From NCBI GenBank assembly GCA_026417375.1, contig JAOADJ010000036.1, forward strand, positions 62,001 through 126,000: a DNA stretch of 64,000 nt, written 5' to 3'. Source of the DNA: Melioribacteraceae bacterium (GTDB lineage Bacteria > Bacteroidota > Ignavibacteria > Ignavibacteriales > Melioribacteraceae). This document shows positions 31,072 through 38,567 of the stretch, one piece after another. Under the pieces are notes generated by a model. The model had not been told where the DNA came from, did not search any database, and was given only the letters and a program-made list of their open reading frames with translations. Both the position numbers and the translations under genes were made by a program. Numbering within the stretch: position 1 is the first letter of the stretch; each line of letters begins with the position of its first letter.

Positions 31072-31101
31072 GCAATCAAAATTTTCAGTTTCGGAGTGTG
31101 T

Positions 31102-33870
31102 GTGAAAAAAATTTTATTCTTGCCAATTATGGCATTCTTGTTTCTTTATTTAAATGGTTGTACATCTTTTAATTCAACATCTTCAAAAAGCATTTCAAAT
31201 TATTACACGAAGCAAGACACATTAAAAACTCAGGAAAGTAAATCTTTAGTTAATCAAATGTTAGAAAGTGCTCGCCGGGATTATGTAAATGCTCTTTATC
31301 AACAAAAATTAGGATTTAAAAGTGAAGCCATAAATTATTTTGAATCTGCGTTATCTACTATTAATAAATTAAGTTATTATCCGGAAATTGAAAAAAATGA
31401 ATCATTCGATGAATTAGAAACATCAATTGTTGAAGATTATCAAAAATTAGTTTCAAGTTTTGAGGAATTACCTGATGATATTTCTATTAGTGCTTTAAAA
31501 GAATGGATGGATAATAAAATTGATGGAACTGAAATTGAAGAAGATTCTTTAGTTGTTTCTGAAAAAGAAATTAAAAATGAAAATGTTGTTGTAGTAAAAG
31601 TTGGTGATTTTCCATTAGAAGTAAATTCATACGTTGAACAATGGGTTGAATATTTTACTGGAAGAGGAAGGAAACATATTGAGAACTGGCTTTCACGTTC
31701 AGGAAAATATTTCCCGATGATGGCTAAAATTTTTGCAGAAGAAAAAGTTCCTCAACAATTAATTTTTTTAAGTATGGTTGAAAGTGGGTTAAATCCTTTT
31801 GCACGTTCATGGGCTAGAGCCGTTGGGTTGTGGCAATTTATAAGAGGAACCGGAAGATTATATGATTTAAATATCAATTTTCATATTGACGAAAGAAGAG
31901 ATCCCGAAAAAGCAACAAGAGCTGCTGCTAAACATTTGAAGGATTTATATTATTCATTAGGTGATTGGAATTTAGCATTAGCAGCTTATAATAGTGGTGA
32001 AGGAAATGTTCGTAAAGCGATGAGAAGATCTGGTGCATCTGATTTTTGGTCTATTAGAAAATATTTACCAAGAGAAACAAGAAGTTATGTTCCTCAATAT
32101 ATAGCAGTAACTTTAATTGCAAGCCAACCTGAAAAATATGGTTTTACTAATATTCAATATGAAAAGCCACACGAATATGCTACTTATACAATTAATGATG
32201 CATATGATCTAAACATTCTGGCAAAATGTGCCGGCATAAGTGTTGAACTTTTAAGAGAAATGAATCCGGAGCTTACTCAAAACTCAACTCCTCCAAGTTA
32301 TGAAGGAGGTTATCCATTAAAAATTCCAGCAAAATCCTTTGATGCATTTGTTGCAAATGTAAGGAATATTCCTGATGAAGCTAAAGTTCAATTTATTACA
32401 CACATTGTTAAACCAGGAGAAAAAATTTCTCAAATAGCAAGAAAGTATGATGTTAGTATTTCAAAACTTGCAGAAATGAATAATTTGAATGTCAAAAAGA
32501 AATTAGTAGCAGGGACTGAAATTAAAATTCCGGTTGCTTCTGATTTAGATGAAATTAATTTAGTTATTAACACCGATGAACTTCCCGCAATAGAAGATGA
32601 AATAAAATCTTATGACAATAAACCAACATATAGTTTACAAATATCATCATCTGTAAATGATGCATTAACTACAAAAAATTACTCAACTGAAAATGATACA
32701 ATTGAATATATTGTTCCGGAAGGAAAATCTCCTGTTAAATATATTGTTAAAACAAATGATAACTTAGTTGATATTTCAAATATGTTTAACGTAAGAGTTT
32801 CTGATATCAGAAATTGGAACAATTTACCTTATACTTCAAGAGCAAGAGTAGGACAGGAATTAACTATTTATGTTCCTAATGAAAAAGTAGATTATTATTC
32901 ATCCATTAATAATATGTCTGAAAATGAAAGGAAAAATTTAATTCTTACAAATAATGGTGATTCATATATTGAGCATCGTGTTCGTTCAGGTGAATCTTTA
33001 TCATCAATTGCTGCAAAATATGGAGTTTCAGTTTCACAAATAAAAAATTGGAATAATTTAACCAGTAATACAATTAGTCGTGGTAAAAAACTTTTAATTT
33101 ATTCTGCTGATTATAAAGGTAATGTAAGTGTTGCTTCAAATAATAAACCAAGCACTTACAAAGTGAAAAAAGGTGATTCATTAGGAAAAATTGCTCAAAA
33201 GTTTAATGTAACAATAGCACAATTGAAAAATTGGAATAGTCTTTCTTCAAATAATTTAAAAGTTGGTCAAAATTTAGTTATTAAAGACAAACAAATAAAT
33301 TCAATTGGTGATAATTCATATCGAACAGGAAGTAACTTAATTAATCATACTATTAAAAGTGGTGAGACGATTAGTGAAATTGCTGATTATTATAATGTCT
33401 CAATCTCTGAAATTAAAAATTGGAATAACTTAAAAACTAATAAACTAGTAGCAGGTAAAAAATTAATTATTTACTCAGACGAAACAAGTAAAAACAAATC
33501 AACTTCGATATCAAATTCTCCAAAAAAAGAAAGTACAAATGAAATATCAGCAAAAGCAACACTTTATAAAGTTCAAGAAGGTGAATCATTGGAAACTATT
33601 TCAAATAAATTTAATGTTTCTGTGAAAGATCTGAAGGAATGGAATAAACTAAAAAGTGATAAAATTAAAATTGGTCAAGATTTGATAATATATTCGGTTC
33701 AAAAAAGTAAAAATGAAAATGAAAAAAATTTAGTTTATTATGTTCGTGAAGGTGAAAGTTTATGGACGATTGCTAAGAATTATAAAGTTAAAGTTGCAGA
33801 TCTAATTGCTTGGAATAATTTAAAAGATGAAAAAGTAAAAGTTGGTCAAAAAATAATAATTCAACAATAG
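31102..33870 (+). CDS. MltD-like membrane-bound lytic transglycosylase with seven LysM repeats
   Basis: This lipoprotein of about 922 residues cleaves peptidoglycan. A lipobox (LNGC) follows the hydrophobic N-terminus. A helical region spans about 30-180. The family 1 transglycosylase domain has catalytic glutamate near residue 227 in [11 protein letters not shown], then [11 protein letters not shown] and [15 protein letters not shown]. Seven LysM domains follow (about 395 to the end), and one more degenerate copy may precede them. The better-known MltD proteins carry two or so. I chose the second of two close GTG codons, because GGAG at 31093-31096 would overlap the first. The last five repeats share the core KNWNNL or a close variant. 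Confidence 0.92.
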
Positions 33871-33888
33871 TTCTTTTAATAAATAAGA

Positions 33889-33974
33889 GTCGTTAGGGGT
33901 GCCCTCGTAAAACAAGAGGCGCTGAGAATAAACCCTTGAACCTGATCTGGGTAATGCCAGCGTAGGAAAACGGC
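33889..33974 (+). promoter_or_regulatory. TPP riboswitch (THI element) aptamer
   Basis: The conserved core is plain: GGGGTGCC, CTGAGA (33922-33927), ACCC, and CCTGATCTGGGTAATGCCAG followed by CGTAGG. The closing stem P1 pairs GTCGTT (33889-33894) with AACGGC (33969-33974). It binds thiamine pyrophosphate and lies directly upstream of an outer-membrane receptor, thiamine pyrophosphokinase and a symporter. The expression platform follows at 33991-34023. Confidence 0.96.
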
Positions 33975-33990
33975 AGGAATAATTAAGCCC

Positions 33991-34023
33991 GCCGTTTTCA
34001 AGTTTTTTCCAAAACGGCTTTTT
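33991..34023 (+). terminator. Riboswitch-controlled intrinsic terminator
   Basis: GCCGTTTT (33991-33998) pairs with AAAACGGC (34011-34018) across a 12-base loop and is followed by five T. The left arm plus one base (GCCGTTTTC) is also perfectly complementary to GAAAACGGC at 33966-33974, the 3' strand of aptamer stem P1. With TPP bound P1 forms and the terminator is free to form; without it the P1 strand can act as anti-terminator. This is a classic off-switch. Confidence 0.9.
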
Positions 34024-34052: not shown

Positions 34053-36542
34053 ATGAAACGCTTAATTATTCTTATGTTTTTTACAATTTCAATTTCCGCA
34101 CAAGTTAAATCTCTCGAAGGAAAAGTTTTAAACTTCGAAAACTTAGAACCAATTCCTTTCTGTAATATTCTAATTGAAGGAAAAAATATTTCAGCTATAT
34201 CAAATCAAAATGGTTACTTTTTAATTTCTGATGAAATCAGTTTATCTGATAAAATTATTTTTAATCACATCGGTTTTGTAAAAAAAATAATATTAGTTAA
34301 AGACTTTTTAAATCAAAGCAAAAAAGAAGTTCTGTTAGAAAGTAAGTTATTTAGTTCTCAAACGATATTAGTTAAAGGAATTATTTCAGATAAAAAAAAT
34401 ACTCCAATTAGTTTTTCAAAAATTAAACGAGAGGAATTTGTTAAAAGTTATTCTACACAAGATATTCCTGAATTAATAAGTTATTTGCCATCAACTTATT
34501 TTTATTCAGAAAATGGTAATGGACTTGGTTATAATTATCTCAGTATCCGTGGTTTTGACCAAAGAAGAATTTCAGTTTCAATAAATGGAATTCCTCAAAA
34601 TGATCCTGAAGATCATAATGTTTACTGGATTGATTTTCCGGATTTAATTGAAAACAGTGAATTAATTCAGGTTCAACGTGGAGCTGGTAATGGAATTATT
34701 GGTTATCCTTCAATTGGTGGCTCAGTTAATATTATAACTTCAACTTTTTCTGATAAATCCTTTTTAGAATTAAATACTGCAATAGGAAGTTACAATACAA
34801 GAAAATATGGTGTTTCTTTTTCATCTGGATTAATAAATAATAAGTATTCTTTTAGTGGTAAAATTTCACAAACATTAAGTAGTGGTTATAGAAATTTAAG
34901 TTGGGTTGATCTTAAATCATATCATATTTCGGCAGTAAGATTTGATGATAACTTAACAACACAAATTAATATTTATGGTGGTCCAATTGCAGATGGTTTA
35001 GCATATACTGGTTTACCAAAATTTGCTATTAAAGATAAAAATCTTAGAAAACAAAATTATTCTTATTGGGAAGCTGATAAGAATTCATTTACTTATGTTT
35101 TAGAAAGAAGAGCAGAAGAGATTGAAAATTTTTCACAACCACATTTTGAAATTTTAAATCAATATAAGTTTGATGATAACTTGAATTTCAATTCTGCATT
35201 GTTTTTAGTTTTAGGAAATGGATTTTTTGATTATGATGCCTCGTGGGCAGATACTTCATATTTTAGATTGACTAAGGAATTTGGGTTCACACCAAAAGAA
35301 AATCCAACCAATTCATTAATTCGTGCAATGGTTGAAAATAAACAATTTGGTTGGATTCCAAAACTTAATCTAAAACATAGCAATGGTGAATTAATTGTTG
35401 GAGGAGAATTCAGATTTCATAATTCTTTACATTGGGGCAGTATAAACTATGCAAATAATTTACCGGAAAATTTATCTAAATCATTTAAATATTATCAGTA
35501 CAATGGAAGTAAGGATATAATTAATTTATTTTTCAATGAAAATTATAATGTTAGTGAAAAAATAAATTTACTTTCAGAAATACAATTTGCTTATAATAAA
35601 TATAAGTTGTTTAATGAAAAATTTTTGAATAATAACTTTAGTATTAAACATTTTTTTATTAATCCACGTATTGGTGTTAACTACAAATATGATGATAAAT
35701 TATCAGGTTATTTAAGCTTTGCATTTATACAACGTGAACCCAGATTAAAAAACTATTATGATGCAGCTGAATCGAGTGGTGGAGAACTTCCGCAATTTGA
35801 ACTAAATAATGATGGAAGTTATAATTTTAATTCACCATTAGTTAAACCCGAAAAAATGTATGATATTGAACTTGGAGCAAATTATAATAATGAAAAAATA
35901 TCTTTTTCACTTAATGGTTATTACATGATGTTTAAAGATGAAATTGTAAAGAAAGGGCAATTAGATAGATTTGGTCAGCCAATTACTGGAAATATGGATA
36001 ATACAATTCATTATGGAATAGAAGCCACATTTAATTATAAAATTCAACCTAACTTAGAATTAATATTAAATTCATCATTAAGTAAAAATATAATTTCAAA
36101 TGGAAATACTTTTGTAAAAACTAAAGATTTAACTGGTAAAAAAGTAATTGCAAAAATTGATTTAGAAAATAATTCAATAAGTGGATTTCCAGACTCATAT
36201 TTTAATTCTATTATAAAATATTCTAATGATAATTTTTATTTACAATTATCAACAAAATATGTTGGTTCATTTTATACTGATAATTATGCAGAAAAATTAC
36301 CATCACTTTTAAGAATTTATCCAAAGCTAACTGATTACATTGACAATAAAGTTGATTCATATTTTTTAATTAACTTATTTGTATCAAATGAATTTGATGT
36401 TGAATACATTCAATCTAAAATAAAGCTTTATTTACAGGTTAATAATTTGACAAATAATCTTTATGCTGCTTATGGAATTGGAGGAGAGTTTTTTCCAGCT
36501 GCAGAAAGAAATTATTTATTTGGAGTTAAAATAAATTTATGA
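34053..36542 (+). CDS. TonB-dependent outer-membrane receptor, probably for thiamine
   Basis: The 829-residue protein has a signal peptide (to about SISAQ, residue 17). A carboxypeptidase-regulatory-like beta domain spans about 20-95. The plug domain follows at about 130-240, with YLSIRGFDQRRISVSINGIPQND and GGSVNIIT. A long beta-barrel runs to a C-terminal aromatic-rich end (YLFGVKINL). Such receptors import scarce ligands using TonB energy. The TPP riboswitch directly upstream and the kinase downstream make thiamine or a precursor the likely ligand. It has an AGGAG ribosome site. No SusD partner is present. It overlaps the kinase gene by four bases. Confidence 0.9.
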   Translation: MKRLIILMFFTISISAQVKSLEGKVLNFENLEPIPFCNILIEGKNISAISNQNGYFLISDEISLSDKIIFNHIGFVKKIILVKDFLNQSKKEVLLESKLFSSQTILVKGIISDKKNTPISFSKIKREEFVKSYSTQDIPELISYLPSTYFYSENGNGLGYNYLSIRGFDQRRISVSINGIPQNDPEDHNVYWIDFPDLIENSELIQVQRGAGNGIIGYPSIGGSVNIITSTFSDKSFLELNTAIGSYNTRKYGVSFSSGLINNKYSFSGKISQTLSSGYRNLSWVDLKSYHISAVRFDDNLTTQINIYGGPIADGLAYTGLPKFAIKDKNLRKQNYSYWEADKNSFTYVLERRAEEIENFSQPHFEILNQYKFDDNLNFNSALFLVLGNGFFDYDASWADTSYFRLTKEFGFTPKENPTNSLIRAMVENKQFGWIPKLNLKHSNGELIVGGEFRFHNSLHWGSINYANNLPENLSKSFKYYQYNGSKDIINLFFNENYNVSEKINLLSEIQFAYNKYKLFNEKFLNNNFSIKHFFINPRIGVNYKYDDKLSGYLSFAFIQREPRLKNYYDAAESSGGELPQFELNNDGSYNFNSPLVKPEKMYDIELGANYNNEKISFSLNGYYMMFKDEIVKKGQLDRFGQPITGNMDNTIHYGIEATFNYKIQPNLELILNSSLSKNIISNGNTFVKTKDLTGKKVIAKIDLENNSISGFPDSYFNSIIKYSNDNFYLQLSTKYVGSFYTDNYAEKLPSLLRIYPKLTDYIDNKVDSYFLINLFVSNEFDVEYIQSKIKLYLQVNNLTNNLYAAYGIGGEFFPAAERNYLFGVKINL

Positions 36543-37192
36543 AAAAATGTTTGATTATTGCTAATGGCGATTTACCAAAAAAAAGTATTATTAATTTTTT
36601 AATTAAGAAAAATTATAATACAATTATTTGTGCCGATGGTGGAGCAAACAAAGCCAAAAAAATTAACATAATACCAAATTTTATAATTGGCGATTTTGAC
36701 TCAATTAATGAAGAAACAAAAAAACATTATGAAGGAAAATCAAAGTTTATTGAAATTAGAAGACAGAATGATACAGATGTTGAAAAATGTTTAAAGTTTG
36801 CCATTAAAAATAATTTTAAAGAAGCTTTGTTACTTGGTGCAACTGGTGATAGGCTTGATCATACTATTTGCAATCTTGGAATTGTATTAAAATTTTACAA
36901 TCAAATTAAAATAAAAATTATCCATCAAAAATCATTATTAACACCATTGACTGGTATTGTTAATTTATCTACTGTTGAAGGAGAAACTGTTTCAATTTAT
37001 GGATTCGATGAAAAGACTTTGATAACATCAAAAGGGTTAAAATATAAGCTGAACAAATCATCACTTTCATTCGGGAAAAAGGAAAGTACAAGCAATGTTG
37101 CACTAAAAGATAAAATTGAATTAACAATTGAAAATGGAATAATATTTTTTATAAGAGATTTCGATTTAGTGAGAAAAAATGATTTCATTTAG
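36539..37192 (+). CDS. Thiamine pyrophosphokinase
   Basis: This enzyme converts thiamine to TPP with ATP. The 217-residue protein carries the family motifs ICADGGANKAKK, PNFIIGDFDSI, RQNDTDVEKCL and LLGATGDRLDHTICNLG, with the aspartates that bind Mg-ATP. The C-terminal beta domain is present. It is translationally coupled to the receptor (ATGA) and overlaps the symporter by 14 bases, so salvage from uptake to cofactor is encoded together. The cofactor made here is the ligand of the upstream riboswitch. Confidence 0.93.
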   Translation: MKKCLIIANGDLPKKSIINFLIKKNYNTIICADGGANKAKKINIIPNFIIGDFDSINEETKKHYEGKSKFIEIRRQNDTDVEKCLKFAIKNNFKEALLLGATGDRLDHTICNLGIVLKFYNQIKIKIIHQKSLLTPLTGIVNLSTVEGETVSIYGFDEKTLITSKGLKYKLNKSSLSFGKKESTSNVALKDKIELTIENGIIFFIRDFDLVRKNDFI

Positions 37193-38567
37193 CAACTTAG
37201 ATATAATTATTATTTCCATTTTCTTTTTTTTGTTAATGATTATTGGATTTATTCCGAAAAGTAAAAATGAATCTGAAAGTTTTCTCCTTTCAAACAGAAA
37301 TGTTGGTTTATTTCTATTTATAATGACAAATGTTTCTACCTGGTATGGTGGAATTTTAGGTGTTGGCGAATTTACTTATAGATATGGAATTTTAAGTTGG
37401 ACAACTCAAGGATTACCTTATTACATTTTTGCTTTAATATTTGCGTTGTTATTTTCTTCTAAAATTCGTTCATCAAATCTTTTTACAATTCCTGAAAAAA
37501 TTGAGTCAATCTATGGAAAGAATGTTGGAATTTTGTCTTCAATTATTGTTTTTATTTTAGTATCGCCAGCACCTTATCTTCTTATGATTGGTAATTTAAT
37601 AAGTTATGTGTTCAACATTAAATTAATTTATGGATTAATAATTGGAATAATATTCACATCAACTTATTTATTTAAAGGTGGTTATAAATCCGATTTATAT
37701 ACTGATGTATTTCAATTTTTTGTGATGTTTATTGGATTTGGTTTATCACTTTATTTTATAACAAATAATTATGGTGGCTTGACATTTTTAAAATCAAATT
37801 TACCATCGCAACATTTATCATTTACCGGAAATGTATCAATTACTTATTTAATTGTATGGTTTTTAATTGCAATATGGACGTTTGCTGATCCGGGATTTCA
37901 TCAAAGATGTTATGCAGCTAAAAATAATTTCGTTGCAAAGTGGGGAATTATTATATCAATATTCTTTTGGGCATTGTTCGATTTTTTAACAACATCAACA
38001 GGATTATATGCAAAGGCATTAATACCTAATTTAGAAAATCCAATTCTTTCATTTCCAATTTTTGCAAATCAATTTCTTTCATCTGGAATTAAAGGAATTT
38101 TTGTTGCTGCTATGTTTGCAACTATTTTATCAACTTTAAATAGTTTTTTATTCTTAAGTGCAACAACTATTGGAAAAGATTTTTTTTCAAAAATTAATAT
38201 TAAAAGGAAATTGTCAGATGTTTATTATGTAAAAATTGGTATTATAATTTCTTCATTTGTTGCAATATTGCTATCATACTTTGTTCAATCGGTAGTTGAT
38301 TTATGGTATTTAATAGGAAGTATATTTATTCCACCTGTTATTTTATTAATTATTAGTTCATATTTTTTAAAATTAAAAATCAATAACACATTAGCAGTTT
38401 TTGAAATTATTTTTACAATTGTTTTAGGCATTACCTGGCAATTTACAAGAAGTTTATTTCAAAAAAGTATATTTAACGAAATTGAACCAATGATTGTTGG
38501 ATTAATTATAGCAGTAATTATTCATTCAATCGGATTGTTAATTCAAAAAAAATTGTCAGTCAAATAA
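37179..38567 (+). CDS. Sodium:solute symporter family protein, candidate thiamine transporter
   Basis: This 462-residue inner-membrane protein has about 12-13 hydrophobic helices of the SSS/LeuT type. Visible features are the N-terminal LLSNRNVGLFLFIMTNVSTWYGG region, WTFADPGFHQRCYAAK (a motif also seen in pantothenate, proline and other SSS carriers) and SPAPYLLMIGN. Its overlap with the thiamine kinase gene and control by the TPP riboswitch imply import of thiamine or its precursor. Bacteroidota thiamine operons often use PnuT instead. The family call is firm; the substrate is inferred from context only. The stop lies inside a terminator hairpin. Confidence 0.85.
   Translation: MISFSNLDIIIISIFFFLLMIIGFIPKSKNESESFLLSNRNVGLFLFIMTNVSTWYGGILGVGEFTYRYGILSWTTQGLPYYIFALIFALLFSSKIRSSNLFTIPEKIESIYGKNVGILSSIIVFILVSPAPYLLMIGNLISYVFNIKLIYGLIIGIIFTSTYLFKGGYKSDLYTDVFQFFVMFIGFGLSLYFITNNYGGLTFLKSNLPSQHLSFTGNVSITYLIVWFLIAIWTFADPGFHQRCYAAKNNFVAKWGIIISIFFWALFDFLTTSTGLYAKALIPNLENPILSFPIFANQFLSSGIKGIFVAAMFATILSTLNSFLFLSATTIGKDFFSKINIKRKLSDVYYVKIGIIISSFVAILLSYFVQSVVDLWYLIGSIFIPPVILLIISSYFLKLKINNTLAVFEIIFTIVLGITWQFTRSLFQKSIFNEIEPMIVGLIIAVIIHSIGLLIQKKLSVK

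Follow-up and report, generated by a model that had tools for sequence, protein, structure and literature searches.

A 64,000-nucleotide stretch of a Melioribacteraceae genome (assembly GCA_026417375.1, contig JAOADJ010000036.1, positions 62,001 to 126,000; hereafter the window) carries a thiamine pyrophosphate (TPP) riboswitch followed by genes for a TonB-dependent outer-membrane receptor, a thiamine pyrophosphokinase (TPK), and a carrier of the sodium:solute symporter (SSS) family. The locus is very probably a TPP-repressed scavenging operon of a thiamine auxotroph, with the SSS carrier replacing PnuT. We infer the substrate of the carrier, its Na+ coupling, the direction of transport, and the mechanism of the switch. 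The original prediction, made from the DNA alone, named this riboswitch and these three genes, with overlaps of 4 bases between receptor and TPK and 14 bases between TPK and carrier; open reading frame (ORF) coordinates, Rfam, and protein family matches confirm the layout (Table 1). The aptamer is the single Rfam TPP match both in the window and in the whole host genome (2.83 Mb, 99%-complete).

The gene content of the host points to dependence on external thiamine. The host genome has no match to the PnuT family (PF04973), so the operon is not of the PnuT type; ThiB, ThiC, and ThiE were not retrieved over cut-off, and there is no second TPP riboswitch. The predicted handover of the inner-membrane step to a different transporter family is supported, and a separate PnuT or ThiB system of the kind that would undercut it was looked for and not found. 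Two weak host matches were set aside as probably belonging to other barrel proteins: a partial one to ThiE (26.5 bits, cut-off 145.1) and one to ThiG (30.5 bits, Pfam cut-off 23) that is limited to positions 92-210 of 247 and lies in a 333-residue frame. The pattern extends to relatives. ThiB was over cut-off in none of 28 genomes (ThiT, YkoE, and CytX carriers were not searched for). Among 73 genomes of the class Ignavibacteria, all 73 have a TPK and ThiE passes its cut-off only in the three with ThiC (other thiamine-phosphate synthases and ThiD were not searched for); full-length ThiG was likewise confined to those three among 32 genomes checked. A cell that has a TPK and lacks ThiE can use thiamine but not the pyrimidine precursor HMP, and because HMP would be useless without ThiC or ThiE, thiamine is the likely cargo.

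In the proposed pathway, the receptor would deliver thiamine to the periplasm, from which the SSS carrier would import it with Na+, and TPK would convert it to TPP. By its position, the receptor is likely OMR1/OMthi-like, with thiamine as its presumed substrate. This scheme fits the complete route from outer membrane through inner membrane to cofactor that had been predicted.

Table 1. Elements of the putative thiamine scavenging operon (window coordinates)
Feature	Position	Strand	Evidence
TPP riboswitch aptamer (RF00059)	33885..33985	+	Rfam 69.2 bits, gathering score 54.3
3' strand of aptamer stem P1, also 5' strand of predicted antiterminator	33967..33974	+	Folds; complementary to 33991-33998
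Predicted intrinsic terminator	33991..34023	+	Stem 33991-33998 with 34011-34018, then five T; -9.1 kcal/mol, z -2.95
TonB-dependent outer-membrane receptor, 829 aa	34053..36542	+	PF00593 88.4 bits; PF07715 (plug) 51.7 bits
TPK, 217 aa	36539..37192	+	TIGR01378 161.8 bits, cut-off 76.4
SSS (SLC5) family carrier, predicted Na+-coupled thiamine importer, 462 aa	37179..38567	+	PF00474 88.8 bits, cut-off 22.8

Conservation of the operon and exclusion with PnuT and ThiC

Carrier loci were examined in a named genome collection that gave 573 related stretches; the best 80 were kept, and all counts out of 80 refer to them. In 77 of these, the gene immediately before the carrier matches TPK; among the three others, the contig of one (L095) starts within the carrier gene. 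Receptor matches accompany 72 of the 80. A TPP riboswitch was found in 63 of the 67 loci with enough upstream DNA (61 by motif and 2 more by Rfam), the other 13 ending before its expected place. Over all loci read, including those of other classes, the motif scan missed the riboswitches of L058, L110, L148, L149, and L157, which Rfam recovered. The TPK/SSS junction is a 14-base overlap in 37 of 72 cases and one of 23 bases in 22.

Genome-level searches gave a similar picture. Of the 28 genomes of the order Ignavibacteriales, 27 show the riboswitch-linked arrangement; in the remaining one (G156), 830 bases separate the carrier from a contig start. Across the class, 60 genomes bear the carrier. 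In 43 of them, the only TPP riboswitch is found 3.0-4.3 kb before it and in the same orientation; these 43 include three (G120, G172, and G240) whose riboswitch scores below the gathering score. TPK adjoins the carrier in 45 of the 60. The original prediction proposed a check for co-occurrence of riboswitch and carrier in other genomes, and such co-occurrence is seen; the carrier, which appears to take the place of PnuT, is no oddity of one genome, since the arrangement spans the order and extends to other families. Given the TPK adjacency in 77 of 80 loci and the linkage across class genomes, we rejected chance gene order as an explanation. In other classes of Bacteroidota, where 14 of 26 strong carrier regions were read, a TPK match adjoins the carrier in all 14 (that of L145 confirmed by Pfam); a riboswitch reaches the gathering score in 3 and none does so in the other 11. 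The L146 region stops at a contig end. In L148 (f49), the order is riboswitch, TPK, SSS, and then a downstream receptor match, rather than receptor first. A scan of viral contigs gave no relative; among 54 plasmid records with one, the four examined list no thiamine gene as neighbor.

In the genomes examined, the carrier also excludes PnuT-family genes and ThiC. It was searched for in 296 genomes of the phylum, and PnuT-family proteins and ThiC in 153 of these, leaving out 143 without a carrier match; the 153 comprise all 93 genomes with any carrier match, 13 class genomes without one, and 47 others taken in handle order. The threshold for a strong carrier was chosen after the scores were known, with the weakest counted genome at 182.8 bits and the first excluded at 85.7; scores of 102.2 and 91.5 bits belong to second matches in genomes that the count already includes. 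Seven genomes with weak matches were scored as lacking the carrier, four of them with PnuT-family genes and three with ThiC. The 73 class genomes divide into 60 with the carrier, 10 with a PnuT-family protein over cut-off, and 3 with ThiC, with no overlap and none left over; in G152, which has the carrier, a PnuT-family match of 23.6 bits stays below threshold. With 80 genomes from beyond the class included, the totals in the 153 become 86, 41, and 33, respectively. No genome pairs the carrier with a PnuT-family protein or with ThiC, and eight combine a PnuT-family protein with ThiC. G272 is the sole genome of the 153 with none of the three.

Fisher values for the two exclusions are 9e-20 and 4e-15 over the 153 genomes. 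Because relatedness inflates these values, switching inside the families f6, f10, and f30 is the better evidence. In f10, one genome (G093) has receptor-TPK-PnuT and three from sister genera (G120, G200, and G243) have receptor-TPK-SSS; f6 and f30 each include carrier and PnuT-family types, the f6 carrier being unlinked. In G093, the protein in the position of PnuT matches the PnuC model with 107 bits (cut-off 42) and is read as PnuT because of its neighboring TPK.

Carrier structure and likely cargo

The carrier belongs to the SSS (SLC5) family by its PF00474 score and by an AlphaFold2 model (pLDDT 93.4, pTM 0.91) with a LeuT-type fold, most of which can be aligned to CHT1, SiaT, and SGLT1. 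It is one of seven SSF members in the host genome. A tree of 55 proteins places it in a clade of 47 (support 100/100, branch 2.56), outside of which fall the six other host SSS proteins and Escherichia coli PanF and PutP; long branches leave the branching order outside the clade unsure. Clustering with a carrier of unrelated substrate, which would have spoken against the prediction, was not seen with the references included (E. coli PanF and PutP). Tyr56, Glu64, Asp237, and Pro238 are identical in all 47 clade rows. Hydroxyls of the Na2 site are present, with Ser318 and Thr319 aligned to CHT1 Ser346 and Ser347, and Ser318 is kept throughout the clade.

A different cargo for the carrier (choline, pantothenate, proline, or a sugar), with its place in the operon due to something other than thiamine uptake, is very improbable, even though its nearest solved structures are those of choline carriers (CHT1, 9bim, Z 45.6, rmsd 3.0, 457 aligned), ahead of SiaT (Z 37.9), and its best named NCBIfam equivalog is PanF (TIGR02119). 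The PanF match, at 70.1 bits, is far under the 328-bit cut-off, so the carrier is not assigned to that equivalog, and the tree sets it apart from PanF and PutP. The published choline cage of CHT1 consists of Trp62, Tyr91, Trp141, Trp254, and Trp406 (PMC11589582, PMC13220886). In an alignment with human CHT1, three of these five are kept (Trp62 as Trp55, Tyr91 as Tyr81, and Trp406 as Trp376) and two are replaced (Trp141 by Ser129 and Trp254 by Asp237), so that the full aromatic cage of a choline transporter is not present. On the PanF score, the tree, and the cage residues, we rejected identity as PanF or as a choline carrier. Transport of another solute would also leave unexplained the TPK adjacency across families and the exclusion with PnuT-family genes and ThiC.

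Import of HMP (or AmMP) rather than thiamine is very improbable. It has a precedent in SAR11 ThiV, an SSS carrier under a TPP riboswitch that is reported as a likely HMP carrier, with HMP uptake measured in whole cells (PMC11452348). However, HMP use requires ThiE, which is over cut-off in none of the 60 class carrier genomes, full-length ThiG occurs in none of 28 order genomes checked, and the partner gene encodes TPK, which acts on thiamine. HMP import was rejected on the ThiE result. Import of thiamine phosphates (TMP or TPP) besides or in place of thiamine, which partly overlaps the preferred explanation, is highly improbable, as TPK acts on free thiamine, is present in all 73 class genomes, and adjoins the carrier, the pocket of which seems akin to that of a small-cation carrier.

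Several findings weigh against a thiamine-importing SSS carrier that replaced PnuT. Four loci (L056, L091, L104, and L105) have the carrier without riboswitch or receptor, and in 15 of the 60 class carrier genomes (families f7, f11, and f18, and genome G192) it lies apart from riboswitch and TPK. Some pocket residues, Trp376 included, differ in the f7 carriers. The genomes are related, so the exclusion does not amount to 153 independent events. PF04973 spans PnuC, a nicotinamide riboside carrier family, as well as PnuT; in G093, the riboswitch scores 37.7 bits, below gathering, and none in the region reaches the gathering score. Fourteen other PnuT-family regions have a TPK neighbor in only two, both convergent, and no riboswitch near, so a clean exchange at one position has been seen once. 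The residue pairings were made by eye, and Asp237, which pairs with Trp254 in the human CHT1 alignment, falls in a gap in the sfCHT alignment. At position 129, members of the clade have Ser, Thr, Asn, Ile, Leu, or Val, and SGLT1 also has Asp at the place of Asp237. On these three grounds, the gap, the variable position, and the SGLT1 residue, the pocket speaks against choline more than it speaks for thiamine.

The unlinked genes are of several kinds. In four of nine f7 genomes (L112, L114, L116, and L118), a related SSS gene has RNase HII as its neighbor and is separate from both the riboswitch-receptor locus and TPK; Trp376 is not kept in these proteins, which are possibly riboswitch-free thiamine carriers or carriers with a changed substrate. 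In L122, L124, and L130 (f11 and f18), the related gene lies beside a CDP-alcohol phosphatidyltransferase, with riboswitch and receptor elsewhere in the genome. The carriers of L105 and L091 have no TPK, riboswitch, or receptor nearby; the L105 contig is labeled candidate division WOR-3 and may reflect gene transfer or mis-binning.

Switching layout and flanking sequence

Folding and sequence allow positions 33991-33998 two alternative partners, part of P1 or the downstream arm of the terminator hairpin. These competing pairings, with five T after the second hairpin, are the arrangement of a transcription-terminating OFF switch. At low TPP, the P1 strand would base-pair with the terminator's 5' arm, and transcription of the operon would proceed; with TPP bound, that arm would be released, the terminator would form, and the operon would be off. 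Terminator-like hairpins of at most -6 kcal/mol lie 3' of the aptamer in 61 of 62 leaders, compared with 91 of 620 shuffles, a count that may mix terminators and antiterminators in some rows, since the hairpin picked for the window was the antiterminator. A consensus promoter scan gave no more matches than shuffles, and the riboswitch terminator was not on its list, the loop limit of the scan being 8. Just 5' of the riboswitch ends a large GTG-start ORF (31096-33870), in which several LysM-like repeats and a lytic-transglycosylase-like part were judged present by eye; it has no relation to the thiamine operon.

Comparison with known systems

If our reading is true, the SSS carrier would fill a missing uptake step. 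Ignavibacteria in anammox granules are reported to lack thiamine synthesis genes, and the available part of that report names expressed thiamine ABC transporters only for two proteobacterial genomes (PMC5460018). An SSS gene directly after TPK could serve as an annotation marker for such carriers, and the natural exchange of PnuT and SSS proteins at one operon position offers a simple test of whether a facilitator and an ion-driven symporter can stand in for each other. The literature searched yielded no description of a receptor-TPK-SSS operon or of PnuT replacement, although an earlier mention is possible in Rodionov et al. 2002 or RegPrecise.

Gut Bacteroidetes are reported to use PnuT for thiamine uptake (PMC5613172). 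The OMthi and PnuT-Tnr3 system of Bacteroides thetaiotaomicron, as described there, resembles the present one in its TPP riboswitch, TonB-dependent receptor, inner-membrane carrier, and TPP-making enzyme. It differs in that here the carrier is SSS rather than PnuT, all three genes stand in one run, and the host lacks ThiC and ThiE over cut-off.

Riboswitch-linked SSS carriers (ThiV/SSSP, under TPP control) had earlier been put forward as candidates for thiamine or HMP transport, which qualifies the original prediction. A gut-genome reconstruction counts ThiV as a B1 transporter (PMC6593275), riboswitch-linked thiV and omr have been seen in metagenomes (PMC2211319), and coastal Flavobacteriales clusters have omr1 near a riboswitch (PMC10881298). 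Reported ThiV residues are Tyr78, Asp139, and Phe254 followed by His, in SiaT numbering (PMC11452348); in its own numbering rather than that of SiaT, the window carrier shows Tyr81/Tyr82 close to core helix 2 and Phe240-His241 in core helix 6. The genomic context that marks ThiV/SSSP, an upstream TPP riboswitch or adjacent thiamine genes, is present at the window carrier. A distinct SSS subfamily, separate from ThiV/SSSP, is a tentative and rather doubtful proposal: Na+-driven thiamine import may have arisen from a choline-carrier-like ancestor through an opened aromatic cage, with one Trp changed to Ser and another to Asp, followed by several exchanges with PnuT across Ignavibacteria and related lineages. 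Toward CHT1 and sfCHT, the likeness is one of structure and three shared cage residues, and the difference lies in the two replaced tryptophans. A diatom SSSP, eukaryotic and likened here by family and role rather than by sequence, is an SSS carrier reported as genetically required for thiamine uptake (PMC9544697). ThiV, SSSP, and SSSQ share with the window carrier the SSS family, a TPP riboswitch link, and thiamine-gene neighbors (PMC4260697, PMC11452348, PMC2211319, PMC6593275, PMC10881298); compared by gene context and not by sequence, their neighbors in the published clusters are salvage genes (tenA in a Pelagibacterales cluster and thiE-thiM-thiD in Alkaliphilus), whereas those of the window carrier are a receptor and TPK.

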